The notes under the pieces are model-generated. The model was given only the letters and a program-made list of their open reading frames with translations. It was not told where the DNA came from and did no database searches. A program made the position numbers and the translations under genes. From positions 1 to 50,562 of IMG/VR virus record IMGVR_UViG_3300046804_002449: 50,562 nucleotides of DNA; one strand, given 5' to 3'. Shown one piece after another: positions 6,953 to 46,621 of the stretch. Every line of letters starts with the position of its first letter. Positions within the stretch are counted from its first letter, which is position 1. The stretch comes from a virus.

Positions 6953-7692
6953 ATAAAGGCTTGATTCCAGAATTGTTTTGCTGCGTTCATCTGTTCTTCC
7001 GTTTTGGAAGGCAGGTGCCAATCTGGATAATCTGCTTGAATGCCAAACACAAGATCAAATTTGCCGCATTTACTTTGAAACCGTGCGGTTTCTTCGCAAA
7101 TAGCTGCGGAGAATCGTTTTTCTAAACTTTGTCCAGCAGGAACAATGTCAATGAACCAAGGTCGAGTTCCTTCGGTTACAGCAAAAGCATAGATACCTTC
7201 TGAGGTCGAAACCACAGAATCTTTGGGTCCGGGAGGACCATCTGGTCCGATTGGACCCGGAGGGCCATCTGGTCCGATTGGTCCATTTGGACCCGTTGGA
7301 CCGATTGGCCCCGGAGGGCCGGGAGGTCCGGGAGGGCCATCAGGACCGATTGGCCCCGGAGGTCCGGGAGGCCCACCGCTGGGACCGGGAGGACCGTCTG
7401 GTCCCGGAGGTCCGGTTGGTCCAGTTGGCCCATCTGGACCAGTTGGCCCATCAGGGCCAGTTGGCCCCGTTGGTCCCGGTCCGCCGGGAATACCGGGATC
7501 ACCCGGATTTCCGGGATTTCCGGGAGAGCCATTAACACCCGGAGAACCCATAGCATCACTGGTGGATGCCACCTTGGGTGAATCTAGTTGTGAAATTGTT
7601 ACTCCGCTGGAGGTTGGAAACGTGGTAATAGAATCATTTCCCCACACCCAAGGGCGGTTTGCGATCTGAGAATTGCCTGTGTATTCGCTCAT
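6949..7692 (-). CDS. Collagen-like fibre protein (247 aa)
   Basis: An N-terminal globular segment of about 48 residues is followed by Gly-X-Y triplets from residue 49 to 157. There are 19 triplets, one extra Gly at residue 106 that breaks register, then 17 more. The C-terminal domain of about 90 residues has two cysteines and several tryptophans. Pro is frequent in both X and Y positions, so a triple helix is plausible. Such proteins form trimeric phage tail fibres or capsid fibres. The gene begins within the stop of the preceding gene (ATGA at 7689-7692) and ends in ATGA overlap with the hydroxylase, so the three are one translational unit. Confidence 0.9.
7222..7548 (-). repeat. Collagen Gly-X-Y coding repeat
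   Basis: This 9-bp-based tract encodes 36 Gly-X-Y triplets with the unit GGN-CCN-NNN. Codons vary from unit to unit (GGT, GGC, GGA), which lowers perfect DNA repetition. One single-Gly insertion shifts the triplet phase at residue 106, a typical flexible kink. Confidence 0.9.
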
Positions 7693-11219: not shown

Positions 11220-11779
11220 CGTGTGGCTTGGAAGTGCATACTATCCCTTTGCCAGAAAGCACCAGCAGGCATCCAGCCTTCTTTGGCAAACTCTTCCATG
11301 ACTTCAAGGGGCATTGTAGCCCGTGTAGGCCAAGGCGTGTGATTGCCATTGCTTTCAGGGTCAAAATCAACCGCTGCTGCCCTTGCGTGCAAGCTAGGCA
11401 GTGAGCCTCCACGCATAAGGCGATTGTTGTAGCAACCAGCATACCTTTCCAAAACTTTGCGATGCGGTCCCTTGCTAAGAGCTGTCAGAATGCGCTTGAG
11501 GCTTTCAGCTACCTTAGCATGGCAACGGATGATTCGGACAGGTTTGCCCTCATATTGAATGCCAAGAGAAGCCACATTGATTGTGGTCAGCTTGGATTCA
11601 TCGCCAGCAGCCCCATAAAACTTAGTCAACGCAGCTTGATTTGTTTCGGGCCAAGGACTCGGATTAGGCATCAATTTACGCAAGTATTCTTGGCAGGCGG
11701 CAATGCTTTTTGGACCCCAAAACCCATCTGGAGTGGTGCCAATCTTGGCCTGCATATCTTGGATTTCCTTGTGTGTCAT
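11216..11779 (-). CDS. M15 peptidase-type endolysin
   Basis: The 187-aa protein has an N-terminal peptidoglycan-binding-like segment (MQAKIGTTPDGFWGPKS) and a VanY/M15-like metallopeptidase domain. Likely zinc ligands are H131 and D138 in SLHARAAAVDFDP and H182 in DSMHFQ. It would cleave peptide cross-links in murein from inside at the end of infection. There is no signal peptide, so export depends on a holin; several small membrane proteins lie directly upstream in the same operon. It overlaps its neighbours at both ends by ATGA. Confidence 0.88.
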   Translation of the reverse strand: MTHKEIQDMQAKIGTTPDGFWGPKSIAACQEYLRKLMPNPSPWPETNQAALTKFYGAAGDESKLTTINVASLGIQYEGKPVRIIRCHAKVAESLKRILTALSKGPHRKVLERYAGCYNNRLMRGGSLPSLHARAAAVDFDPESNGNHTPWPTRATMPLEVMEEFAKEGWMPAGAFWQRDSMHFQATR

Positions 11780-11877
11780 TTATTAGACGTGTAAATGATG
11801 ATGACGCCCCAAACGAATAGGGCAATCGCGGTAAAGGTTAAGCCGAAAAGCTGGGCGAATGAGAACTCTTGAATCAT
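11776..11877 (-). CDS. 33-aa single-span membrane protein
   Basis: The ORF MIQEFSFAQLFG continues into one hydrophobic helix (LTFTAIALFVWGVIIIY) and a short TSNK tail. ATGA overlaps occur with genes on both sides. Its position directly before the endolysin suggests a holin-like or lysis-accessory role. Confidence 0.7.
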   Translation of the reverse strand: MIQEFSFAQLFGLTFTAIALFVWGVIIIYTSNK

Positions 11878-12131
11878 GGGAGGCTGTCTGGCTCGATCAT
11901 ACGAGTATTGTTTTTGTGAAGGAACTTTGCCAGATCGGTGCTGAGTTTGTCCACAACATCTTCTGGCAAAGCCCATTCCCATTCATGCAGAAACTCATGG
12001 ATGAGGATACGCAGGTGCGGTTGGCCTTTAAGCCTAGCATCAATCTCAATCTCACCGTTGCCGTGGGCTAGGCCAAGGGCGCGGTATCGCCCTAGCTTTC
12101 GCCTAGTTACGGTGATTGAGGTCGCTTTCAC
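11874..12131 (-). CDS. Small HExxH protein, putative metallopeptidase (85 aa)
   Basis: It starts at GTG (12131) overlapping the previous stop. An HEFLH motif (H45, E46, H49) lies in a helix ILIHEFLHEWEWALPED, the hallmark of zincin metallopeptidases, followed by a C-terminal helix. The family is a short, SprT- or ImmA-like phage protein and the third zinc ligand is not obvious. Its place in the lysis cassette might mean an accessory murein or envelope protease, but intracellular roles are equally possible. Confidence 0.65.
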   Translation of the reverse strand: MKATSITVTRRKLGRYRALGLAHGNGEIEIDARLKGQPHLRILIHEFLHEWEWALPEDVVDKLSTDLAKFLHKNNTRMIEPDSLP

Positions 12132-12514
12132 AGCTTGGTTCGGACTTGCTTGACCATCAAAGTATTGGACCCACGCACGTTTTTGGCGATCTGGTAATCT
12201 GTGTAGCGAGGATGACGCTTGATGGCTTTTTTGATCTTGCTTTCAAGATCGTTGGCTTGAGGCTTTGCCAATGGTCCATCGGATTCTTGCCTTTGCCGGT
12301 AGCATTTGACTCGGATCGTCATGCGCCGTTTAGCATCCCAAACAGGAAACTCTTGGGCTTCAAAGACGCCTGATGCAAGTCCGCCACGCAAAAGATCGTG
12401 GACACGCTCTGGAGCGCATTGCAGTTCGATGGCTATTTTCTCTTTGGTGTCCCATCCAGCAGGGACGCGATATTTCTCAATGTTGATCTTATCAATGGCT
12501 TTTTGCCAGTTCAT
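12128..12514 (-). CDS. Winged-helix-like DNA-binding protein (128 aa)
   Basis: The N-terminal half resembles a winged helix (WDTKEKIAIELQCAPERVHD). The C-terminal half has a second possible HTH (KKAIKRHPRYTDYQIAKNVR). This paired arrangement is common in phage regulators and small terminase-like proteins. It may regulate the lysis operon. It is separated from the phosphoesterase gene by 20 nt. Confidence 0.55.
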   Translation of the reverse strand: MNWQKAIDKINIEKYRVPAGWDTKEKIAIELQCAPERVHDLLRGGLASGVFEAQEFPVWDAKRRMTIRVKCYRQRQESDGPLAKPQANDLESKIKKAIKRHPRYTDYQIAKNVRGSNTLMVKQVRTKL

Positions 12515-12534
12515 AGGTTTGTTTTGGCGGGTTA

Positions 12535-14502
12535 TCAGACGAAAATGGGGAACGTGACCGTCCTTCCATATCGTTTGTCAAAGATGAAGCCAGTCTGTGA
12601 AGGTGGCTCGTAGGGTGCTTTGATTGCTACGGAGTAAGCATTGAAACCGATAAGTGAACCATTGCATACCCACTTGGGATTTTGTTGCGACTGATGCCAA
12701 TGCCCAAAGATGTCGAGGTCTGCTGGAACCCCTTTGTTCCACGCAGCGATAGCTTTTTCGACTGGAATGGTCAGACCACCGACACCACCTTGGTATTGCA
12801 AACCGTCTCCGTGGTGGATGCGGAGTGTTTTGCCGTAAAGGTCAAGAAGCAGATGGTAACCGTCAGACACATGCCAAGAGGCTTTGTCCCTCAGATGCTT
12901 CGCCATCGTCTTGTAAAGCATCCATTCGTAGCTGTTTGCTGCACCTGTGGCATGTCGGGGTTTTTTGGTGCTATTACCACTAACAAGTGGTATTCCATTT
13001 CTGCGCGTAATAAGTGTTCCATTCGGAACGGTTCCGCACCAAATGGTTCCTTCATAATCAACCTCAAAAACTTGATTTTTAAAATCGTTAATATGACCCC
13101 TTTTACTTTTGGGAAGCGAAAGAATTGAATCGCCACGATTGTCTTTTCTTACTCTAGCGGCAATGCCATGTATTACAGCCAAAGATTGAAGTTGACTCAA
13201 AAAATGCTCTCTTCCATAAATTACGCACTCTTCGCCTCTGGTGTGCCCATCTCCATCTATTACAGATGAAAGAAAAATACCAAACTGCCTTGTGGACAAG
13301 TCCATAAACCACTCTGGAAATACATACTTATCTGGAAGTAGATCAGTTATCCATTTGGATGACTCAGAAGAAAGAGTAAAGGATCGCTCAGTTAATTTAC
13401 TTAAAAGTGGCCTCCCGCAAACATGTGCCGTATCTCGATCTCTTGCAAAATCGCCATAGCACAATCCTAGCCGGTTAAGAATGTCCTGAATTTTATCAAT
13501 ACCCTCTTGTTTGCTCTGGTGTATTCTTACAGAGATGCGTCCTCGTTGATGGCCATACGATCCATCCGTCATAATCCATCCTAAAAGTCGTAATACATCA
13601 TCGCATATAACCACAGGCTCTTCATCTTGGCCTAATGCACACTTGGGCCAAGTAAGTGATCCAAACGATCCTTTATCAACAATGGTCTGAATATCCTCAA
13701 ATTTATCATTTCCCGTGTGTGTTTTTACGACCATTCGATGATTTGGTGTCACCTTATAATCGGCGGTTGCCGTTTTAACATGAATCATCTTACCTGTATA
13801 AGCAGAAATGAAAATATCTGTTAGTTCTTGCCATTGGTTTTTACCTGTTTCCATGTTGTAGGTAGCAACGACATCGCCAATTTTAATCTCGTTGTATTTC
13901 CTCCATCCATGGCGCGTAAGCAATTCTGTTTCGTCATCATGGCATCTGCCATGATTTCCATACACACAGGGTATTGAAATTTCCCCAAAGTGCTTGGATA
14001 GCAGATCAACTCCGCTGGCAATTTGGTCCTGAAGCCACAGAACCGTTTGCGTTGGCGATAGAGCGTTGTTCTCCATCAATTCCTCATGGATGTAGCCCGT
14101 CATCAAGTCACCCCCTAAAATAAGCACTAAACGCTCAATTTTGGCCCCATGCCGCTGAATCTCAGCCATGCGGACGATAGACTGCCAAAAACGGTTAATG
14201 CGCTGCTCGGCAATGTCGAGGTTGAACTCGTTGAGGCCGTTGATCGTCTTGCCTTCCACCGTTTCCTCCACATGCCAGTCAGAGGCTACGGCAACAAAGG
14301 TGGCCTCGGCATCGGTTTCCTTGGCAACTTTGATCTTAGAAGCCACTGGCTTTTCACCGGAAATACCAAGGGCTACATTGAGTTGCTGATCTTTTTCGGC
14401 AATGACGGCAAAGAGCTTTTTGCGCTCTACTTCATGGTCCGCCACTGTTTTCTTGTGACGAATCTCTTGAGTTTCGTGGAGAGCGGCAGACCAGTTTTTC
14501 AT
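12535..14502 (-). CDS. Calcineurin-like metallophosphoesterase containing an intein
   Basis: The precursor is 655 aa. The extein is a metallophosphoesterase: DWH at residues 75-77, GGD at 130-132, GNHGR at 182-186, and HHGD and GHWHQ (563-566 and 600-604) for the remaining metal ligands. It most resembles phage Mre11/SbcD- or MPP-type phosphatases; the substrate is unknown. An intein (residues 187-510) sits immediately after GNHGR and before STKKPRH, in the catalytic motif itself. Without splicing the enzyme should be inactive. The mature protein would be about 331 aa. Confidence 0.9.
   Translation of the reverse strand: MKNWSAALHETQEIRHKKTVADHEVERKKLFAVIAEKDQQLNVALGISGEKPVASKIKVAKETDAEATFVAVASDWHVEETVEGKTINGLNEFNLDIAEQRINRFWQSIVRMAEIQRHGAKIERLVLILGGDLMTGYIHEELMENNALSPTQTVLWLQDQIASGVDLLSKHFGEISIPCVYGNHGRCHDDETELLTRHGWRKYNEIKIGDVVATYNMETGKNQWQELTDIFISAYTGKMIHVKTATADYKVTPNHRMVVKTHTGNDKFEDIQTIVDKGSFGSLTWPKCALGQDEEPVVICDDVLRLLGWIMTDGSYGHQRGRISVRIHQSKQEGIDKIQDILNRLGLCYGDFARDRDTAHVCGRPLLSKLTERSFTLSSESSKWITDLLPDKYVFPEWFMDLSTRQFGIFLSSVIDGDGHTRGEECVIYGREHFLSQLQSLAVIHGIAARVRKDNRGDSILSLPKSKRGHINDFKNQVFEVDYEGTIWCGTVPNGTLITRRNGIPLVSGNSTKKPRHATGAANSYEWMLYKTMAKHLRDKASWHVSDGYHLLLDLYGKTLRIHHGDGLQYQGGVGGLTIPVEKAIAAWNKGVPADLDIFGHWHQSQQNPKWVCNGSLIGFNAYSVAIKAPYEPPSQTGFIFDKRYGRTVTFPIFV
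12973..13944 (-). mobile_element. Intein with LAGLIDADG homing endonuclease (324 aa)
   Basis: Splicing blocks are visible. Block A starts at C187 (CHDDETELLTRHGW). Block B is TPNHR at 252-256. Block F is near VFEVDYEGTIWC. Block G ends PLVSGN at 510, with S511 as +1 nucleophile. Between them are two LAGLIDADG-type helices, LLGWIMTDGSYG (306-317) and FGIFLSSVIDGDGH (407-420). The penultimate residue is Gly instead of the usual His, a known but uncommon variant that may slow Asn cyclisation. Confidence 0.93.
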
Positions 14503-14506
14503 TTGA

Positions 14507-14731
14507 TTAAGGGTTTAGAGCTTCTTGGACACGTTTCATATAAAGGTCTGCTGAATACCAGCGTTCGTCAACTTGCGCCCTATAAATGCCCATCTTTGTC
14601 TGGATCACTGTCCCTGACTGGATTTCGAGCGTATCCGGCGAGTAAAGCTGCATGGAGCTTTCGACGGTAGGTGAGCGCTGAGCGCAGGCGGTCAGCAGTG
14701 GAACGGTCAGCAGGATTACCAGCTTTTTCAT
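14507..14731 (-). CDS. o-spanin-like lipoprotein (74 aa)
   Basis: From the ATG at 14731 (ATATG context) the protein begins MKKLVILLTVPLLTAC, a lipoprotein signal with lipobox LTAC and mature N-terminal Cys. The mature part is about 58 residues. It starts inside and out of frame with the upstream i-spanin-like gene, the classical Rz/Rz1 nesting. It would be anchored in the outer membrane and bridge to the i-spanin for outer-membrane disruption. Confidence 0.75.
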   Translation of the reverse strand: MKKLVILLTVPLLTACAQRSPTVESSMQLYSPDTLEIQSGTVIQTKMGIYRAQVDERWYSADLYMKRVQEALNP

Positions 14732-14858
14732 ATTGGATAATCCTTTCTGTAAGTTGTTCACAGTCTTTTGTCAACTTCCATGCCAACCATAACGGGAATG
14801 CCTTGGCAGTAGCGGAAAAGCCCTCCAAAGCAGCCGTTATAGCGGCAAGTAGTGTCAT
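14580..14858 (-). CDS. i-spanin-like inner-membrane protein (92 aa)
   Basis: The N-terminal hydrophobic segment (LLAAITAALEGFSATAKAFP) is followed by a charged likely coiled coil (LTKDCEQLTERIIQYEKAG, RLRSALTYRRKLHAALLAG). Topology and the out-of-frame overlap with a lipoprotein gene fit an i-spanin. ATGA overlap with the small membrane gene upstream. The family is widespread in phages as an unassigned protein, so the spanin role is inference. Confidence 0.65.
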   Translation of the reverse strand: MTLLAAITAALEGFSATAKAFPLWLAWKLTKDCEQLTERIIQYEKAGNPADRSTADRLRSALTYRRKLHAALLAGYARNPVRDSDPDKDGHL

Positions 14859-17356: not shown

Positions 17357-19102
17357 TTACCAGACTGTTATTGCACCTCCAGATGGGAGAGTGACGTTTG
17401 CTCCAGCGGTGATTGTTGAGAGGTTGAAAACTGATACAGCACTAATTGAACCTGTGCCGCCACCAATGTTTCCCACAAGACCAACTGATCCATTGTTTGT
17501 GGTTACTGTTCCGTAATTAGTGGTAACAGTGCCACCAACACCATTGGTGGTGACAGTTCCGTCATTTGTAGTGACAGTTGAATTATTTGTAACAACAGTT
17601 CCAGAACTTGAATTGGTAGGCACAGTTCCATTGTTAGTGCTAATTGTGTCATTATTTGTGGCAACCGTTCCATCATTAGTGGTGACCGTTCCATCATTAA
17701 TGGTAACAGTGTCAGAATTGGTTGTAACAACGCCAGTGCTTTCGTTGCTAGTTACTGTTCCATTATTAGTAATGACTGTTCCAGCATTGGAATCAACACT
17801 TCCAGTATTTGAATTTGTATCAACACTTCCAGTTGAAGCATTGGTTGTTACAGTTCCATCATTTGTAGTGACAGTTCCATTGTTGGTGGTAACAGTATTG
17901 CTATTAGTCGCAACCGTTCCTGTGCTACTATTAGTGGTTACAAAACCATTGTTGGTGGTTACTGTTCCAGCATTTGTATTAATCAATGATCCATTAGTAG
18001 TAACTGTCCCATCATTAGTAGTAATGGTAGCACTATTTGTAGTTACAATTCCGCTGCTTCCATTTGTAGAAATAAGTCCACTATTAGTATCAACAGTTCC
18101 ATTATTGGTAGTAACAGTTCCAATGTTAGAATTGGTGGTAATTATTCCATCGTTGGTAGTAACAGTTAAATTATTGGTAGTAACTGTTCCTGTATTACTA
18201 TTTGTAGTTACAGTTCCGTTATTTGTATCAACAGTTCCGTTGTTGGTGCTAACAGTTGTGCTGTTAATACTTACGGTAGCATTGTTGCTAGTTACAGTTC
18301 CATTGTTAGTGGTTACAGTGCCATAGTTTGTTGTTACATTTCCAGAATTGTAATCAATGGTTCCATTGTTGTTGGTAACAGTTCCAGTTCCACTATTTGA
18401 AATAATAGTTCCGTTGTTATCAGTTACAGTTCCATTGTTTGTAACGGTATTATATCCACTTGAGGGAACTTCATCAACCGTATTACTTGCTACAATAGTG
18501 CAATCATTAGATGAAGTTGGAACAGCACCATTGGCAATCGTTCCGGTAGAATTTTGAAACCAGTTTGCTGAATCGGCCCACAATCCAGAACTTTGATCTA
18601 CATAATAGATATTAACAACGACTCCATTGTTGGTGGCGATTGTCCCATTGTTGTTAGTAACAGTTCCGTTATTGGTGGTGATCGTCCCGTTATTTGTGGT
18701 AACAAGATTGTCATTGGTAACAATTAAACCGTCATTTGTTACTACAGTTCCACTAATATCATTAGTAGTTACAGTGCCAGAACTGCTATTTGTGGTAATA
18801 GTTCCGTTGTTTGTAGTAACGACTCCATTATTAGTTGTTACGGTTCCATTGTTAGTGGTTATTGTTCCGCCAGCACCATTAGTAACATTAGAAGTTCCAT
18901 TATTGGTAGTAACTGTGCCGTAATTTATTACAGTGTTGTATCCACTTGAAGGAATCTCATCAACCGTGTTGCCAATGTTGATTTCACAATCATCGCTTCC
19001 AGTTGGAGTAGCACCATTTGGAATAGTGCCAGCTTGGTCTTGAAACCAGTTGGCAGAATCATTCCAAAGTCCAGAACCTTGATCTATGTAGTAAAGAGTC
19101 AT
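17357..19102 (-). CDS. Heptapeptide-repeat (TTNNGTV) fibre protein (581 aa)
   Basis: Two copies of an N-terminal module (YYIDQGSGLWNDSANWFQ and YYVDQSSGLWADSANWFQ, each followed by VDExPSSGYNTV) precede long runs of the heptad T-T-N-N-G-T-V and variants. The runs are only briefly interrupted and continue to about residue 560. This strongly suggests a regular beta-solenoid shaft. Codons are diversified so that the DNA is not a perfect repeat. It sits between other fibre genes with ATGA overlap upstream. Confidence 0.8.
   Translation of the reverse strand: MTLYYIDQGSGLWNDSANWFQDQAGTIPNGATPTGSDDCEINIGNTVDEIPSSGYNTVINYGTVTTNNGTSNVTNGAGGTITTNNGTVTTNNGVVTTNNGTITTNSSSGTVTTNDISGTVVTNDGLIVTNDNLVTTNNGTITTNNGTVTNNNGTIATNNGVVVNIYYVDQSSGLWADSANWFQNSTGTIANGAVPTSSNDCTIVASNTVDEVPSSGYNTVTNNGTVTDNNGTIISNSGTGTVTNNNGTIDYNSGNVTTNYGTVTTNNGTVTSNNATVSINSTTVSTNNGTVDTNNGTVTTNSNTGTVTTNNLTVTTNDGIITTNSNIGTVTTNNGTVDTNSGLISTNGSSGIVTTNSATITTNDGTVTTNGSLINTNAGTVTTNNGFVTTNSSTGTVATNSNTVTTNNGTVTTNDGTVTTNASTGSVDTNSNTGSVDSNAGTVITNNGTVTSNESTGVVTTNSDTVTINDGTVTTNDGTVATNNDTISTNNGTVPTNSSSGTVVTNNSTVTTNDGTVTTNGVGGTVTTNYGTVTTNNGSVGLVGNIGGGTGSISAVSVFNLSTITAGANVTLPSGGAITVW
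17440..18990 (-). repeat. Degenerate 21-bp tandem repeats coding TTNNGTV heptads
   Basis: The pattern ACxAATAATGGxACxGTxACx and variants recurs with a 21-bp period over about 1.5 kb, interrupted near 18460-18610 by the second copy of the WFQ module. Synonymous positions vary strongly, consistent with selection on the protein rather than recent slippage. Confidence 0.8.
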
Positions 19103-20183: not shown

Positions 20184-21359
20184 TTAGTATGCAGGGCAGA
20201 CCGTTCCGGTCACAGCGGTGCAACGCTTCACCATGAGGGCGTAAGCATAGCGGCGCTTGACGGTGGGTTTCCAGCCAGCAACCATCCAAGCCCACCAGCG
20301 ACCATTGTTCTCAAGCGGGTTGAGAGTTTCGTTGGCGATGTTGCGCCAGACGATTTCACCGTTGTAGTTCGGAGCAAGGAACTTGGTGTCCTCACCGACC
20401 GTAGAACGGGAAGGCGGAGTCTGACGGATGACGGCTTCTGGATGCCACAGGTAGATCACTTCGTAGCCAGCGGTCAGGTAAGCCGGATTCACGATGCTTT
20501 GCGTGCCGATAGTGGCAGCAGCGGTCGTGTAGTAAGGAACCTGAACGTAAGCACCGTTCACGAAGTTGTAGCGAGGCATACGATAGTCAATGCAGTGCAT
20601 GAAACCGCCATAAGGACGGTCAACACCCCAAGACTGAAGGAGCTGAGCGCCTTCGTAGCCTTTGCCCATCTGAGCGAAGCGGAAGTCCTCACGGACCGAA
20701 GCCGAACCCTTGATGATCTGGCGGTGAGCTTCAGGCGACATGATCGCCGTGACAAGCGCAGCACCATTGGACATAGCGTAAGGCTCTTCGCCGCCACCGT
20801 CCTGCATGATACGGTCCCAAAGAGGATCAAGCTGATCCTGAGAGGCCATATATTCAGCGGGGGTGTTCGGGAACGTGCTGCCGCTACCTTCCGTTTGGGA
20901 GGTGTTGTTGATGATCTTGGTGCCAGCGTAATACTGGAACCAGTATTTAGAACGATCTTCCCAAGTATCAACGATGGTGTCGCTGAAGTTGGCGCGGATG
21001 TTCTTGACCTGCTCTTCAAACAGATAACCAAATTGGGCATCCGTAAGACAGATGGTGGCCGAGTTGGTCATGTTCTGCTCGATCTGGTAAGCCTCCGTGC
21101 TGAGAGCAGGAGACACACTCGATGGGTCAGGTGTGCAGTTGTTGTTGCTTCCATCAGGCTGAGTAACCTGAACCCATCCAGCACCACCAGTAGGGTTGGA
21201 GCGAAGGGTGTTGACGGTTACTGGGTTAAAGCCGATTCCAAGAGGAAAGGTTTCCTTCTGGAAAAGGGCTGCGACACGGCCTTTGGCACGCATCAGGCGA
21301 CGAACACGTCCTTCAAGACGTGAGGCATCATAAGCGAACTCTTGATTGAGGTTAGGCAT
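20184..21359 (-). CDS. Major capsid protein
   Basis: The 391-aa protein lies directly after portal and scaffold-like genes. It starts with a charged helical N-arm (LEGRVRRLMRAKGRVAAL), then alternating strands and helices compatible with the HK97 fold (TICLTDAQFGYLFEEQVKNI, GAALVTAIMSPEAHRQII). The C-terminal end has conserved-looking aromatic strands (WWAWMVAGWKPTVKRRYAYA). Its own terminator, a long structured leader and a position between terminators suggest high, separately controlled expression. The assignment is by gene order and architecture; a capsid with this primary sequence is not otherwise recognised. Confidence 0.85.
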   Translation of the reverse strand: MPNLNQEFAYDASRLEGRVRRLMRAKGRVAALFQKETFPLGIGFNPVTVNTLRSNPTGGAGWVQVTQPDGSNNNCTPDPSSVSPALSTEAYQIEQNMTNSATICLTDAQFGYLFEEQVKNIRANFSDTIVDTWEDRSKYWFQYYAGTKIINNTSQTEGSGSTFPNTPAEYMASQDQLDPLWDRIMQDGGGEEPYAMSNGAALVTAIMSPEAHRQIIKGSASVREDFRFAQMGKGYEGAQLLQSWGVDRPYGGFMHCIDYRMPRYNFVNGAYVQVPYYTTAAATIGTQSIVNPAYLTAGYEVIYLWHPEAVIRQTPPSRSTVGEDTKFLAPNYNGEIVWRNIANETLNPLENNGRWWAWMVAGWKPTVKRRYAYALMVKRCTAVTGTVCPAY

Positions 21360-39308: not shown

Positions 39309-40099
39309 TTATCCACGACGAAGCCACCTACCGAGCGCATCCCGCTCTCAATTATTCTTCAGCTAAATCACTGCTGAAATCGCCCAAGCACTTCCAAGCC
39401 GCTCTCAATCGCAAGTTTGAGCCTTCACGGGAAATGATTATTGGTAGCGCAGTTCACAGCATTGTTTTGGAGGGCAAGCAACCTTCCTACATCGTTCGTC
39501 CTGCTGATCTCGACCTTCGCACCAAAGAAGGTAAGGCGTGGCGCGATAAACACGCTGGCAAAGAAATCGTGACGCAGGAAGATAATGAAATTGTAGTGAG
39601 GGCAGCAACCGCTGTGCAAGCTAGTCTTGACGCGCAATATCTTCTTAAACTTTGTCCGCACCGAGAAGTCGGTATTGTGCAGCACTACGAAAATGTGCCG
39701 TTAAAGGGCAGGTTGGATGCGTATGGGTATGACGAAGCTGGTAAGCCGATCATTCTGGACTTCAAGACAACGGGAGATGCCGACCCTGAAACGTGGGGGA
39801 AGAAAGCCTTTGGCCTTCGTTACCCTATGCAAACAGCATGGTATGAATCTTTGTTGGCTCTTGAGCTTGGCCTTGAAGAACCACCTGCTTATTTTTGGCT
39901 CGTGGTTGAGACGCAAGACCCGTTCGATGTTGTGATCTATCAGCCACCCGAAGAAGCTCTTGAGATTGGTCGTGCTCAAATGAAGCACTGCATTGAAAGC
40001 TACAAAACGTGCGTTGCCACAAATAAATGGCCGGGATACACAAAAGGAATCATCCAGCTTGAAGTTCCTGCATGGGAGAAAAGGAGGTGGATCAAATGA
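39305..40099 (+). CDS. RecE-like PD-(D/E)XK exonuclease
   Basis: The 264-aa protein shows GSAVH (47-51), GRLDAYG (135-141) with D138, and the D152-x-K154 catalytic pair (ILDFKTTGDA), followed by YPMQTAWY. This is the exonuclease VIII or PDDEXK_1-type fold that generates 3' single strands for RecT. It is coupled to recT and to the DpdA-like gene by 4-nt overlaps. Confidence 0.9.
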   Translation: MIIHDEATYRAHPALNYSSAKSLLKSPKHFQAALNRKFEPSREMIIGSAVHSIVLEGKQPSYIVRPADLDLRTKEGKAWRDKHAGKEIVTQEDNEIVVRAATAVQASLDAQYLLKLCPHREVGIVQHYENVPLKGRLDAYGYDEAGKPIILDFKTTGDADPETWGKKAFGLRYPMQTAWYESLLALELGLEEPPAYFWLVVETQDPFDVVIYQPPEEALEIGRAQMKHCIESYKTCVATNKWPGYTKGIIQLEVPAWEKRRWIK

Positions 40100-40719
40100 T
40101 TGTCATGCCATCAAATAATACTGGATTTGAATGTGGTTATTTATTTGGTCGTCATCCTAAAAGATTAGGTCACTTACATTCTGTTGATTCTCTTAGGGAG
40201 CCTAGACAAAATGTTCCTTGGGCATTAGACAATGGAGTATTTGGAGCTTTTACACAAAATAGAATATGGAATGAGGAACCTCTTTATACTTTTTTAGAAA
40301 CTTATGCAGCATGGAAGCCCATGTGGGTAGTGGTTCCAGATTCTGTTGGGAATAGAGATGAAACACTGCGACTATGGGAACATCATTATCCTGCTCTTTC
40401 AGCTTTTGGTGTTCCTTTGGCTTTTGCTGCTCAAGATGGCATGACTCCATCTGATGTTCCAAAAGAAGCATCTGTTGTATTCATTGGAGGTTCAACATCA
40501 TGGAAATGGCGTAATTTAATGACATGGACAAAATCATTTAGTCGGGTCCATGTAGGACGAGTCAACACATACCGTTTATTATGGATGGCTCATAATGCGG
40601 GTGCTGAATCTTGTGATGGAACAGGTTGGTTTCGTGGAGATGCTAAACAACTTGCTGGATTAAAATTATATTTAGAAGAATCAGATAATGGAAAACAACC
40701 ACAACTAGAATTACTATGA
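40096..40719 (+). CDS. dpdA: DpdA-like 7-deazaguanine DNA transglycosylase
   Basis: From ATG 40096 (ATGA overlap, strong SD AAGGAGG upstream) the 207-aa protein contains PWALDNGVFGAF, WVVVPDSVGN, AFAAQDGMTPSDVP, VFIGGSTSWKW, VHVGRVNTYR and ESCDGTGWFRGD. These are the hallmarks of phage DpdA proteins, TGT-related enzymes that replace guanine by preQ0-type bases in DNA. Likely catalytic residues are D45, D82 and the QDG at 113-115. Together with QueD downstream it should protect phage DNA from restriction. Base composition is clearly more A/T-rich than the neighbours, suggesting recent transfer. Confidence 0.85.
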   Translation: MIVMPSNNTGFECGYLFGRHPKRLGHLHSVDSLREPRQNVPWALDNGVFGAFTQNRIWNEEPLYTFLETYAAWKPMWVVVPDSVGNRDETLRLWEHHYPALSAFGVPLAFAAQDGMTPSDVPKEASVVFIGGSTSWKWRNLMTWTKSFSRVHVGRVNTYRLLWMAHNAGAESCDGTGWFRGDAKQLAGLKLYLEESDNGKQPQLELL

Positions 40720-41099
40720 ACAAAGAAAGATTAAATCAAACATTCAAACTTTGGAAAGATTTTTCGTTTGAAGCTGCTCATCAACTTACAAAAGTTCCTG
40801 TTGGTCATCAATGTGGCAGATTACATGGTCATTCATATAAAGTTAGAGTGCATTGCGAAGGAATACTTGATCCAAATAAAGAATGGGTAGTTGATTATGC
40901 TGATATTGCAAAAGCAGTTAGACCTATTACTGAAAGTTTAGATCATTCTTTTTTAAATGATCGTTTTGATTTTGAAACCACGGCAGAGAATATTGCTTGG
41001 TGGATTGGACAACAACTTGTAGATAAACTGCCATCCGCAGTTGCAGTTGAGTTGTTTGAAACACCAACAACATCAGTTCAATGCCACATTATCAAGTAA
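40716..41099 (+). CDS. queD: QueD, 6-carboxytetrahydropterin synthase
   Basis: This 127-aa T-fold enzyme converts dihydroneopterin triphosphate to 6-carboxytetrahydropterin, a step to preQ0. Zinc ligands are H22 (FEAAH) and H37/H39 (LHGHS), catalytic C33 (HQCGRLHGH), LDHSFLND at 75-82 and the substrate-binding E115 (ELFETPTT). It overlaps dpdA by ATGA and shares its A/T-rich codon use. FolE, QueE and QueC are not in this window and must come from elsewhere in the phage or from the host. Confidence 0.93.
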   Translation: MNKERLNQTFKLWKDFSFEAAHQLTKVPVGHQCGRLHGHSYKVRVHCEGILDPNKEWVVDYADIAKAVRPITESLDHSFLNDRFDFETTAENIAWWIGQQLVDKLPSAVAVELFETPTTSVQCHIIK

Positions 41100-42363: not shown

Positions 42364-42447
42364 AATAATTCAAAAAACATTCAGAATCCCGATTTACTCT
42401 CGTTCGCATTTGTGCGAGCAAACCTATGTCGCAAGACAACCCACAAT
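42364..42447 (+). promoter_or_regulatory. Upstream region of the Tas gene
   Basis: It contains AAAATAATTCAAAAAACATT, similar to AAAATAAATTCAAAAACCATT near 35509, and TTCGCATTTGTGC (42403-42415), the inverse of a 13-mer at 34899-34911. The shared boxes before three separate genes suggest a phage promoter or operator class. Confidence 0.45.
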
Positions 42448-43347
42448 ATGAAAACAAATAATAACATCATCACCAACACTGAAACCATCCGCCCACTTGT
42501 TCGCGGATTCTACGATCTGCAAAAGCTACGCATCCACACGGGCAACCGTTTGTGTGCTCAGTTCCGCGCCAAGCTAGGGCTGCAATCTTCCGAGAAGGAA
42601 GAAGAAGATGAGAAGGCCGAAGAAGTCCTCGACATCATTCGTGCAAGCTACAAGAAGCTCACCGATGGCGTGAAGAAGGAACTGCCAAACATGAAGTCCT
42701 TCGTGGGCGATGAGGTAATCTCCGACTACACCGAGCTTTGCCTTGTCTCGCAATACATTGACCTTGAATCCCGCGAGAGCACTCACCTTCGCCGCATTGA
42801 AAACATCGTGCAGGAACACCCATTGTGGGATGCGTTCTTTGCAAACGTGCGTGGTTGCGGTCCTACAATGGCAGGTGTTATCTTGTGCGAGATTGACATT
42901 ACTCGCGCTACCTATCCAAGCTCTCTCTGGCAATACTCAGGTTTTGGCGTTGAAGCAGACGGACGTGGAACCAGTCGCCGCAAAGAGCACATGCACCGTA
43001 TCAGCTACACGGACAAGGAAGGCAAACCTGCCGAGCGTGATGGCATCCGCTACAACCCTTGGCTCAAAACCAAGTTGTATGTCCTTGGCACTTGCTTCGT
43101 CAAGGCTGGTGGCTTTTACCGCTCATACTACGACAACTACAAGAACCGCTTGGAGAACAGCCCAAAATGGGTGGAAGCAAGCAAAGGACACCGCCACAAC
43201 GCTGCCATGCGTTACATGATTAAGCGGTTCCTCGTTGATCTTTACAAGGCTTGGAGGCCGTTGGAAAACCTGGCTGTTGCACCTGAGTATAGTGTTGGCA
43301 AACTTGGGATGATCCACGGTGAAGTGAAGTTTCCTGTTGCTGCTTGA
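42448..43347 (+). CDS. tasA: TasA-like protein of a TIGR-Tas system (IS110/Nop-domain)
   Basis: From ATG 42448 (CAATATG context) the 299-aa protein has a helical, Glu-rich N-terminal half. The C-terminal part carries NVRGCGPTMAGVILCEIDI (133-151), SLWQYSGFGVEADG (159-172), YNPWLKTKLYVLGTCFVKAG and HNAAMRYMIKRFLVDLYKAWR. This is the helix-hairpin-helix/Nop fold otherwise annotated as IS110 Transposase_20. No DEDD catalytic domain of an IS110 transposase, RuvC or HNH is evident, so it fits the nuclease-less TasA class. Immediately downstream lies a 36-bp-period array. Known family: Tas proteins bind tigRNAs with paired spacers and recognise DNA. Which targets this one binds is unknown. Confidence 0.85.
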   Translation: MKTNNNIITNTETIRPLVRGFYDLQKLRIHTGNRLCAQFRAKLGLQSSEKEEEDEKAEEVLDIIRASYKKLTDGVKKELPNMKSFVGDEVISDYTELCLVSQYIDLESRESTHLRRIENIVQEHPLWDAFFANVRGCGPTMAGVILCEIDITRATYPSSLWQYSGFGVEADGRGTSRRKEHMHRISYTDKEGKPAERDGIRYNPWLKTKLYVLGTCFVKAGGFYRSYYDNYKNRLENSPKWVEASKGHRHNAAMRYMIKRFLVDLYKAWRPLENLAVAPEYSVGKLGMIHGEVKFPVAA

Positions 43348-43372
43348 ATTACAGCAAAAGTTAATTGAGTAA

Positions 43373-43876
43373 GCGAGTCATGATCGCCAAGTCACCCACG
43401 AACTCGAAGCGAGTCAAATTTCGCAAGTCACCCAGAAAACGAGAGCGAGTCAAGTTCCGCAAGTCACCCAAAATACTAAAGCGAGTCATTCTCACAAAAT
43501 CACCCAGCGAGAATTAGCGAGTCAAGCGCAGCAAGTCACCCACGCGGAGAAAGCGAGTCAGGCTTTTGAAATCACCTATTAAAAGGAAGCGAGTCAGCGC
43601 AGCGAAGTCACCCATCGAGCGCAAGCGAGTCACACATATAAAGTCACCCGTGGGAAGAAAGCGAGCCATTCGCGTTGAGCCAACCAAAACCTCGAAGCGA
43701 GTCAATTCCTCAGAGCCACCCATTGCCCCGTAGCGAGTCATTGATCTAAAGCCACCCAAGTAGTGAAAGCGAGTCAGTATGCTAAAGCCAACCAAAGCCC
43801 ATTTGCGAGTCAAGTGACTAGAGACACCCAACATCTTGTAGCGAGTCAATGAATTCAAGTTTCACCCGTCAATCAC
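43373..43876 (+). repeat. TIGR array: 14 units of exactly 36 bp
   Basis: GCGAGTCA starts at 43373 and then every 36 bp (43409, 43445, 43481, 43517, 43553, 43589, 43625, 43661, 43697, 43733, 43769, 43805, 43841) without one slip. Each unit is GCGAGTCA, about 8 variable nt, AAGTCACCCA-like, about 10 variable nt. First-spacer cores: tgatcgcc, aatttcgc, agttccgc, ttctcaca, agcgcagc, ggcttttg, gcgcagcg, cacatata, ttcgcgtt, attcctca, ttgatcta, gtatgcta, agtgacta, atgaattc. Two alternating repeats with two short spacers per 36-nt unit is the layout of TIGR arrays, processed to 36-nt guide RNAs. It starts 25 nt after the tas stop, same strand. Confidence 0.9.
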
Positions 43877-43940
43877 AAGCGTTTATCTTTAACCGTAATA
43901 TTATAGTAATATCTCTTGATTACTTACCATTTATACCTAT
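43877..43940 (+). promoter_or_regulatory. AT-rich leader of the replication initiator gene
   Basis: Very A/T-rich with a direct repeat GTAATAT (43895-43901 and 43906-43912) and TATACC just before the ATG at 43941. It may be a promoter, an initiator-binding site or an origin element. Confidence 0.4.
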
Positions 43941-44867
43941 ATGGCCTTCATGTATTGCAAACTTTTTGCCTCCCTCTACCAAGGAACCCTTCGTGGCAAA
44001 TCTCACGAAATCCTTGTCTTCACCAACATGCTTGCACATGCCGATGCCGAGGGATGTGTGGACAAGCATTTCAGAGCCATCGCTGACGAGGTTGGTCTTA
44101 CCGTTGATGAGGTAAAGGCTGCTGTCGAGAACCTTGAAAGTCCTGATCCAGAAAGCCGATCACCCGAAATGGATGGGAGAAGATTGTTGAGAATCAACGA
44201 TCATCGCGCTTGGGGATGGAAGATTGTGAACTACGGCAAGTATCGAGAAATCAAAAACGATGAGGACCGCCGCAAAGCCAATCGTGAAGCTCAAGCACGT
44301 TGGAGGGAGAGGCAAAAGAACAAGTCATCCGTAAGCATTACAATAACGGAAAGTAATCAATCCGTAATCAGCAGTAATGCGCTGTCATCAGCGTCAGCCC
44401 AAGAAGAAGTAAGAGAAGAAGAAGATGTAAAAGAAGAAGAAAAAGTAACTCGTAAAACTCGTTCCAAGAAATCTCGAACTGATAGTCCATTTTTTGAGGA
44501 ATCAGACTCAACGGAGTTCCGTGAAGCAATGACGGAATGGTTTGAATACAAATTGGAACGCAAAGAAGGTTACATTATTAGCGGTTGGAGACGAACACTT
44601 GACCAGCAACGCCGATACCCTTTGCATTACGTCAAGGCATCTATTGACGCTTCAATTCGTAACGGATGGAAAGGATTGTTTACCGATAAGATCACAAGGG
44701 AAGAAGCGGAGTTGTTTATTGAGCAAAAGCCGCAACCTGAACCCACTGAAGAATCTGAACTCGAAAACCCAATAAATCGTTTTTTAAAAAACATTCATGC
44801 TTTAGCGGAAAATAAACTTGAATCTGAACCAGTCATTGAACCAATCGAAACGGACGAACTGTTCTGA
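43941..44867 (+). CDS. Replication initiator / helicase-loader-like protein (308 aa)
   Basis: The N-terminal winged helix (FASLYQGTLRGKSHEILVFT; EGCVDKHFRAIADEVGLTVD) is followed by SPDPESRSPEMDGRR and NYGKYREIKN. A charged linker and a C-terminal domain (EAMTEWFEYKLERKEGYIIS) complete it. This is the phage replisome-organiser layout, and it precedes the primase-helicase with overlap TGATG. It is a paralogue of the minus-strand gene at 27336-28016. Confidence 0.75.
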   Translation: MAFMYCKLFASLYQGTLRGKSHEILVFTNMLAHADAEGCVDKHFRAIADEVGLTVDEVKAAVENLESPDPESRSPEMDGRRLLRINDHRAWGWKIVNYGKYREIKNDEDRRKANREAQARWRERQKNKSSVSITITESNQSVISSNALSSASAQEEVREEEDVKEEEKVTRKTRSKKSRTDSPFFEESDSTEFREAMTEWFEYKLERKEGYIISGWRRTLDQQRRYPLHYVKASIDASIRNGWKGLFTDKITREEAELFIEQKPQPEPTEESELENPINRFLKNIHALAENKLESEPVIEPIETDELF

Positions 44868-46621
44868 TGCAAACTTTATCCGACATCTCGGCTCGTTTGG
44901 CTGGTCAAGCTCTCAAGGTGGCTCAAATGCTTCTTCCCGCTGGAAAGTTGGAAAGTGGCAGGGATTGGGTGTGCGGCGATGTAACTGGCAAACCGGGAGA
45001 TAGCCTCAAAGTTACCATCACAGGGGCTTATGCAGGGCAATGGCGCGATTGGTCAACCGACTCCGATAAAGGAGATTTGATTGATCTTTGGCGTTTGTCC
45101 AAAAACATCACAGCAGGGGAAGCTGTTCGCCAAGTTAAGGAGTTTCTTGGCATTGTTGATCCTGTCAAAATGGAGCGGAAAAATTACCGCCGACCTCCAG
45201 AAATCAAAAGTAGCAATCTTCATCCAGAAGGTCAGGCCATGAACTTTCTCAAAAATGAGAGAAAACTGACCGAAAACGCCATTTCTGCGTATTTGGTGCT
45301 AGGATGCCCTGAGAAGCGTTGCATAGTGTTTCCAAGCTACTCACCTTCAAAGGAGCTTCTAAACCGTTCTTACCGCACTCTAGGGGCAAATAAACGGGTT
45401 TGGCAAGATGCTGAGTGCGCTCCATCTCTTTTTGGGTGGCAAGCCATTCCAGAACAGTCTTATCGAGACAGAAAGATCATCATTTCGGAAGGGCAGATTG
45501 ACGCAATGACTTGGTATCAATGGGGATTCCCAGCGTTAAGCATACCAAACGGTGCTGGAATGTCATGGATTGAGCACGAATGGGAGAACCTAGAGGCTTT
45601 TGATACAATTTACATCGCTTTTGACGCCGATGGTCCCGGTGCAAAATTCACTGAAACCGTGGTAAATCGCCTTGGTAAGCATCGTTGTCTGATTATTACG
45701 ACACCGAAAAAAGACGCAAATGATTGCCTTAAAGCAGGTTATACGAAGGATGATGCCGCTGAATGGGTAAAGAACGCCAAGACTCCAAGTCTGAAAAAAT
45801 TAATCTTAGCCAAAGATTTACAGTCACGGATTGAACAAGAGATGCTTCCTAAACCGGAGCCGTTCACGTTGCCTTTCCTGAAGGTGACAACGTGGGAAAC
45901 GAATCAGGAAGGATTTTGGTATCGTCCCGGTGAGGTTACAATTATCGCCGGATACAGCAGCGCAGGGAAAACAACCTTTTTGAACTTCCTTATGTGCAAT
46001 TTGTTGGCCGATATGAACAAGATGTTTGTTGCCAGCCTTGAAATGCCATGTGCTCAGTTGCTTCTCAACCTCATCAAAATGTTCGATGGGAACTGTTCAC
46101 CACAAACAGTTGAACATTTTTTGAAGCACGCTGGCGATAATATTGCTTATGTAGATCACATTGGTTCGATGGGGGAGAAAGACTTGCTTGAGATGATGTG
46201 GTTCGCCCATCGTCGTTATGGTTGTGAGCATTTTATTATTGATTCACTTATGCGAATTGAATCGCTTGAAGAAGATTATCCAGCGCAAGGTAAGTTCGTT
46301 CAGGTTTTACAAGATTTTGCAAAACAAACTGGATGCCATGTTCACTTAGTTGCTCATCTTGGTAAGCCTCCACAAGTCACGCCAAAAGGATTTAGGCCAT
46401 CTATGTATGCTGTTAAGGGTAGCAGTTTACTTGTAAATGGGGCTGACAACATCCTTTTACTCCAAAGAAACATGGAGAAAACTAAAGGAGAATACACCGA
46501 TGAACAGAAAGCATCCATGCACGATGTTGAGATAATTGTAGAAAAGCAACGTGCTACTGGATGGACAAACGCTATCAAGTTGAAGTATCACCCAGCCAAA
46601 CGCACGTTTAGCAAAATGTAA
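44867..46621 (+). CDS. Bifunctional primase-helicase (584 aa)
   Basis: An N-terminal region with WRDWSTDSDKGDLIDLW precedes a TOPRIM primase domain: SEGQIDAMTW (E208), then FDADGPG (252-258) and KDANDCL (282-288). A linker leads to a RecA/DnaB-like helicase core with Walker A AGYSSAGKTT (361-370) and FIIDSLMRI as the Walker B strand. There is no obvious Cys4 zinc finger at the N-terminus. It resembles T7 gp4-type replicases and would unwind DNA and prime lagging-strand synthesis. Confidence 0.92.
   Translation: MQTLSDISARLAGQALKVAQMLLPAGKLESGRDWVCGDVTGKPGDSLKVTITGAYAGQWRDWSTDSDKGDLIDLWRLSKNITAGEAVRQVKEFLGIVDPVKMERKNYRRPPEIKSSNLHPEGQAMNFLKNERKLTENAISAYLVLGCPEKRCIVFPSYSPSKELLNRSYRTLGANKRVWQDAECAPSLFGWQAIPEQSYRDRKIIISEGQIDAMTWYQWGFPALSIPNGAGMSWIEHEWENLEAFDTIYIAFDADGPGAKFTETVVNRLGKHRCLIITTPKKDANDCLKAGYTKDDAAEWVKNAKTPSLKKLILAKDLQSRIEQEMLPKPEPFTLPFLKVTTWETNQEGFWYRPGEVTIIAGYSSAGKTTFLNFLMCNLLADMNKMFVASLEMPCAQLLLNLIKMFDGNCSPQTVEHFLKHAGDNIAYVDHIGSMGEKDLLEMMWFAHRRYGCEHFIIDSLMRIESLEEDYPAQGKFVQVLQDFAKQTGCHVHLVAHLGKPPQVTPKGFRPSMYAVKGSSLLVNGADNILLLQRNMEKTKGEYTDEQKASMHDVEIIVEKQRATGWTNAIKLKYHPAKRTFSKM

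Follow-up and report, generated by a model that had tools for sequence, protein, structure and literature searches.

TIGR-TasA systems, among them FpTIGR of Flavonifractor plautii, were described by Faure et al. (2025, Science; PMC12045711). The tandem interspaced guide RNA (TIGR) array of these systems is defined by two alternating repeats of 8 to 12 nt, spacers of about 9 nt and a unit of 36 nt. The arrays usually contain 5 to 15 units, start with a 5'-truncated edge repeat and end with a 3'-truncated edge repeat, which is followed by a rho-independent terminator (PMC12045711). The targets of TIGR systems and the growth of their arrays were called unsolved by the discoverers (PMC12045711). 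Analysis of the 50,562-bp virus record of an uncultivated phage (IMGVR_UViG_3300046804_002449; the window, taken at its full length) revealed a locus composed of a Tas protein gene (tasA) and an adjoining array. An initial annotation had placed a phage-encoded TIGR-Tas system at positions 42448 to 43876; these coordinates proved correct to a few bases, and the contig is a virus record. The family model NF052498, the closest structures by sequence and fold (TasR and TasH), the lack of a nuclease and the dual-repeat array agree with the proposed identity and indicate that the locus is almost certainly a TIGR-TasA system of the published kind (PMC12045711).

The locus shares with FpTIGR and TIGR-TasA a solo Nop protein, a dual-repeat array with spacers of about 9 nt and a 36-nt unit, a phage context and an array of 14 units. 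Its protein resembles TasR (Protein Data Bank entry: 9mty) and TasH (entries 21kl, 9w02 to 9w04, 9vzx, and 9w26) in the sequence and fold of the Nop core, but TasR and TasH have a nuclease domain (RuvC or HNH) at the N-terminus, which the window protein lacks. An RNA-binding Nop-like domain is also common to the IS110 family (IS621, ISCro4; PF02371, Transposase_20). In contrast to IS110 elements, which have a DEDD catalytic domain and a single bridge RNA, the window system lacks this domain and has a guide array.

The Tas protein gene

The tasA gene (42448 to 43347, plus strand) encodes a Nop-domain (solo) Tas protein of 299 aa, as identified by family model, phmmer, Foldseek and motif. The NCBIfam model NF052498 (TIGR_Tas_endo) matched the product at 4.3e-42 with a score of 144.5 (cut-off, 100), while a Pfam scan gave no significant match. 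Searching the solved structures with phmmer revealed TasR 9mty (1.9e-11) and TasH 21kl (2.8e-6), and a 40-member profile compared with the Protein Data Bank sequences matched only TasR (8e-27) and TasH (6e-19). The protein was modeled with AlphaFold2 from 40 relatives, with a mean predicted local distance difference test (pLDDT) score of 86. All 11 top Foldseek matches of this model were TasH or TasR; they were followed by IS621 and ISCro4, and box C/D Nop5 was only a distant match.

The HRHN...R motif region is conserved in the protein. The TasR motif RIRTGNRL, located at residue 121 after the RuvC domain, aligns to residue 21 of the window protein, which leaves no space for a nuclease domain, and the Nop helices of the predicted model start at residue 6. 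No RuvC, HNH or DEDD domain was detected by Pfam, by alignment with TasR or in the model. Of 40 relatives, none has a Pfam nuclease or DEDD domain, and 30 match only the C-terminal Transposase_20 domain of IS110. The initial description of a Nop/IS110-type protein without a nuclease domain is thus borne out. Because the product opens with the Nop domain and has no nuclease, it is, as judged from sequence and model, a TasA-type Tas protein. The name "endonuclease" of the NCBI model would mislabel it.

Architecture of the TIGR array

The array extends from 43372 to 43881 on the plus strand and comprises 14 units of 36 nt, each with the edge repeat AGCGAGTCA, spacer A, the loop repeat AGTCACCCA and spacer B. 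The first full edge repeat is positioned at 43372, 24 nt past the tasA stop codon. The 14 edge repeats start at 43372 to 43840, and successive starts are separated by exactly 36 nt in all 13 cases. A loop repeat is found 18 nt past each edge (14 in total), with the variants AGCCAACCA and AGCCACCCA in later units, and spacers A and B are 9 nt each in every unit. The exact 36-bp period and the alternation of two repeats with two variable segments had been noted initially and are confirmed. Fourteen edges at exact 36-nt spacing contrast with a run of at most 1 in 2000 dinucleotide-preserving Markov simulations, and the periodicity at 36 was 0.69, versus 0.45 for the next-best period. These results indicate that the array did not arise by chance.

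Regularity is highest in units 1 to 8, and the loop repeats become degenerate toward the 3' end. Unit 14 (43840 to 43881, plus strand) is degenerate, with an 11-nt loop (43858 to 43868) and a 3'-truncated terminal edge, AGCG (43878 to 43881); this end is common to only one of the related arrays (L004). Both repeats start with a box D-like AG and end with a box C-like YCA, whereas TasR has UG and CCA. In IMG/VR, 80 TasA loci were found, and nearly all that were tested have a 36-nt period beside the gene. Comparison of edge positions 3 and 6 in 68 arrays revealed 60 C-G, 5 U-A, 2 U-G, and 1 C-A. The C-G, U-A or U-G combinations in 67 of the 68 array consensuses agree with the additional pair that was described in TasR edges (PMC12045711). 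The G2-C8 pair is not universal because edges of the AACGAGTCA type have A2.

Upstream of tasA, a tentative relic unit was recognized in the leader (42413 to 42443, plus strand), with an edge-like TGCGAGCAA (42413 to 42421) and a loop-like AGACAACCCA (42434 to 42443) 21 nt apart. The leader is conserved in two relatives (L003 and L006), and in L126, a relative with 60% identity, a full array with AGACAACCA loops lies upstream. Judged from the motifs, the leader could hold what remains of an upstream array, or it could serve in autoregulation. As a separate observation, the upstream array of L142 and of L126 (3831 to 4009 in both) reaches the tasA start, and its last edge contains or abuts the ATG.

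Array variation among related phages

Array content was compared between the window and four related loci (L003 to L006) with tasA DNA 92 to 96% identical to that of the window; a further locus, L002, has the same array as the window. The tasA product is intact and 95 to 100% identical across the five phages, and the five arrays differ. In the window, the TasA-proximal units 1 to 8 (43372 to 43660, plus strand) are variable. Nothing that corresponds to units 1 to 6 occurs in the other four arrays, and units 7 and 8 share only half-units, with junctions that fall in loop repeats. Units 9 and 10 (43661 to 43732, plus strand) are homologous in the relatives, with diverged spacers. The distal units 11 to 13 (43733 to 43840, plus strand) are 97 to 98% identical in L003, L004, and L005, and units 12 and 13 are also present in L006. 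In L005, an edge and a loop are fused via a shared AGTCA, which is likely the trace of an internal deletion. Two phages with a terL protein 97% identical to that of the window (L032 and L033) lack tasA and all proximal units and retain, at the same place, part of unit 11 and units 12 and 13 as a fossil.

The alignments suggest that in the window lineage, the 3' end is the older part of the array and the TasA side the newer one, and a second pair of loci (L137 and L144) shows the same polarity. Universal growth at the 5' end was considered and rejected, since the arrays of the clusters L134 to L148 and L151/L152 are mosaics; a general polarity rule for TIGR arrays is not established. Between homologous units across clusters, spacers differ at 7.1% of positions (152 of 2142) and repeats at 1.3% (28 of 2142), an approximately fivefold higher divergence of the spacers. 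Such a difference would be expected of repeats that are bound by the protein and of spacers that define changing targets. Similar units within the same array occur in 38 pairs, compared with 5.4 expected.

Both RecT and an exonuclease VIII-like protein are encoded in the phage genome. Among the relatives, the genes for replication that lie between the array and terL are exchanged, and the array lies at the swap junction. A DnaB-like primase-helicase is encoded in the window at 44867 to 46621 and is 99% identical in L005 (3353 to 4548) and L033, while L003 has instead genes for a weakly ParB-like protein, a ResIII/DEAD helicase and a Toprim protein (11428 to 14812). The recombination genes and the swapped replication genes make recombination plausible; from these arrays, acquisition of new spacers cannot be separated from recombination of co-infecting phages. 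In contrast to TIGR-TasA as described, no parB-like gene is positioned beside the window array. In L003, the gene directly downstream of the array (11428 to 12345) encodes a protein with a ParB-like N-terminal part (phrog_2159, 8e-5), which Pfam did not confirm; from its sequence, it is possibly the "TasParB" of the published systems (PMC12045711).

Taken with its relatives, the locus very probably represents a phage-borne TIGR-TasA system, with a solo-Nop gene and a same-strand guide array of 14 units, in a lineage with rapidly varying arrays.

Predicted mechanism and targets

By analogy with the characterized TasA, TasR, and TasH systems, the array would be transcribed with or after tasA, and a host RNase, helped by TasA, would cut inside each edge to give 36-nt guide RNAs (tigRNAs). 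A TasA dimer is expected to hold one tigRNA via the AG...CA (box D/box C-like) ends of edge and loop. Each of the two spacers, A and B, would base-pair with a different strand of the DNA, so that about 18 bp (9 plus 9) are covered, and the pairing would bend and unwind the site. Given the TIGR-TasA identity, binding without cutting is probable. Since no nuclease domain is present, the most likely effect would be a roadblock, which might prevent a competing mobile element from being transcribed or replicated. A nuclease-free binding logic encoded by mobile elements has likewise been proposed for type IV and type V-M CRISPR-Cas systems (comparison from PMC12045711). Unlike these, the window system has an unrelated protein and a split guide of 9 plus 9 nt, and no cas gene was found among the window proteins examined.

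Targets were searched for with composite sequences in which spacer A is followed by the reverse complement of spacer B (gap, 0 to 2). This order was deduced from two published features, the 3' overhang of 8 nt and the C-5 rule (PMC12045711). In the phage itself, about 0.3 Mb of relatives above 90% identity, 0.2 Mb of relatives at 57 to 88%, and other phages, no unit of the lineage matched at 0 or 1 mismatch, and matches with 2 or 3 mismatches were about as numerous as those of shuffled spacer pairs. The absence of a target in the own and closely related genomes fits non-self targeting. When 743 distinct units were compared with 1.9 Mb of viral DNA, 0, 8, and 216 matches were obtained at 0, 1, and 2 mismatches, against 0.07, 7.4, and 203 for shuffled pairs. 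Exact scans of IMG/VR with units 10, 11, 12, and 13 gave 1, 4, 7, and 9 matches, which corresponds to chance level. In these scans, each non-degenerate pattern had 0.5 to 4 matches, several in homologous contigs and none in related phages. For the role suggested initially, recognition of competing phages, plasmids or host genes, these scans identified no target.

One unit of a related cluster, TAGAGGTCA|AGCGAACTA, which is common to L139 to L148, has an exact gap-0 site of 18 bp in a primase-helicase gene (L201, 1590 to 1607; L204, 5985 to 6002). The site lies at the conserved motif KGLRGHSSL, where two of the three variants of the spacer would leave the protein sequence unchanged, and the L201 metagenome also has two TasA fragments (L199 and L200). 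This site may serve as a lead only: by the number of matches it does not exceed chance, as the unit has no more of them (four) than other patterns, and two of them (L202 and L203) are in another gene. Searches with terL and the protein at 20184 to 21359 gave no match in 50,697 phage records, and the primase-helicase matches were too broad to name a host. As to the main aim of the system, competing phages or plasmids are given an even chance.

Alternative explanations

Several observations weigh against the TIGR-TasA reading. In contrast to the described arrays, the first window edge is complete (the arrays of L003 to L006 start with the truncated edge TTTTGTCA), and terminator scans revealed no clear rho-independent terminator after the array; Rfam, tRNA, and promoter scans likewise gave nothing useful. 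Part of the array may be inactive, as suggested by the decayed loops in units 9 to 14. No spacer pair had a convincing target in the viral DNA and IMG/VR scans. The loss of tasA in L032 and L033 indicates that the system is dispensable, and the fast divergence of spacers relative to repeats could come from purifying selection on the repeats alone.

The array may regulate or repress host genes, for takeover or for superinfection exclusion via the host, rather than act on competing elements. This would agree with the failure to find matches above shuffled-pair controls in the own, related, and other phages examined and with distal units that are constant among relatives presumably sharing a host. 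However, units 12 and 13 persist as a fossil without tasA, so their conservation needs no selection. Host genes are a distinct but lesser possibility as the main target, level with targets of any other kind.

A decaying, largely nonfunctional remnant is improbable. The degenerate loops, the malformed unit 14 and the two phages without tasA would be explained by decay, but not the intact gene of the five phages or the near-perfect repeats and new spacers of units 1 to 8, which point to recent renewal.

An ordinary RNA-guided transposase of the IS110 family with flanking repeats would account for the shared Nop/Transposase_20 domain and for the rank of IS621 and ISCro4 directly after the Tas proteins in fold. 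PHROGs names the protein family (phrog_4285) "transposase", the label that the initial annotation had foreseen from generic pipelines. However, the profile search passed TIGR_Tas_endo and failed transpos_IS110 (E = 0.11, far under its cut-off), the N-terminus starts in Nop helices, and the DEDD domain is missing from all 40 relatives (element ends were not systematically searched for). In addition, the locus occupies the same genomic place in the relatives, and the array fossil of L033 without tasA looks like a deletion and not like an empty insertion site. The transposase explanation is therefore very improbable.

That the repeats encode protein (36 nt equals 12 codons) is practically negligible: a minus-strand frame of 114 aa is open at 43514 to 43858, and runs of 115 to 125 codons occur in L003 and L004, but the 36-nt period keeps any frame open arithmetically, the frame has only 69 codons in L005 and 31 in L006, intervals of 37 and 38 nt occur in relatives, and triplet phasing is missing (of 101 pairs of substitutions, 28 are separated by a multiple of three, close to the uniform 25%).

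Neighboring genes

Near the locus, a PTPS/QueD-type enzyme (PF01242, 2e-30; 40716 to 41099) adjoins a phrog_15826 protein (40072 to 40719), possibly for 7-deazaguanine DNA modification. An exonuclease-like protein (phrog_284) is encoded at 12535 to 14502 on the minus strand, and appears to be split by an intein that bears a LAGLIDADG domain (PF14528). Collagen-like GPx repeats (7232 to 7525) and a long "TTNNGTVT" repeat protein (17357 to 19102) probably belong to structural phage proteins.

Implications

The locus adds a clear-cut phage case to a kind of system published in 2025. The system itself is of a known kind, and the comparison of array dynamics is new; a search of open-licence PMC papers revealed no work in which near-identical loci had been compared for the content of their arrays. 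We consider it rather unlikely, but possible, that the arrays are a renewable memory, in which guide units would be gained or swapped next to tasA, at the 5' end, while older ones linger and degrade at the 3' end. The spacer pairs would be copies from elements encountered in shared hosts. If true, this memory would be an adaptation-like process in systems with no known acquisition machinery. Five near-identical loci, a fossil without tasA and mosaic arrays provide natural material on how arrays change and where TasA is aimed, and this variation makes the origin of TIGR spacers and the identity of their targets testable.
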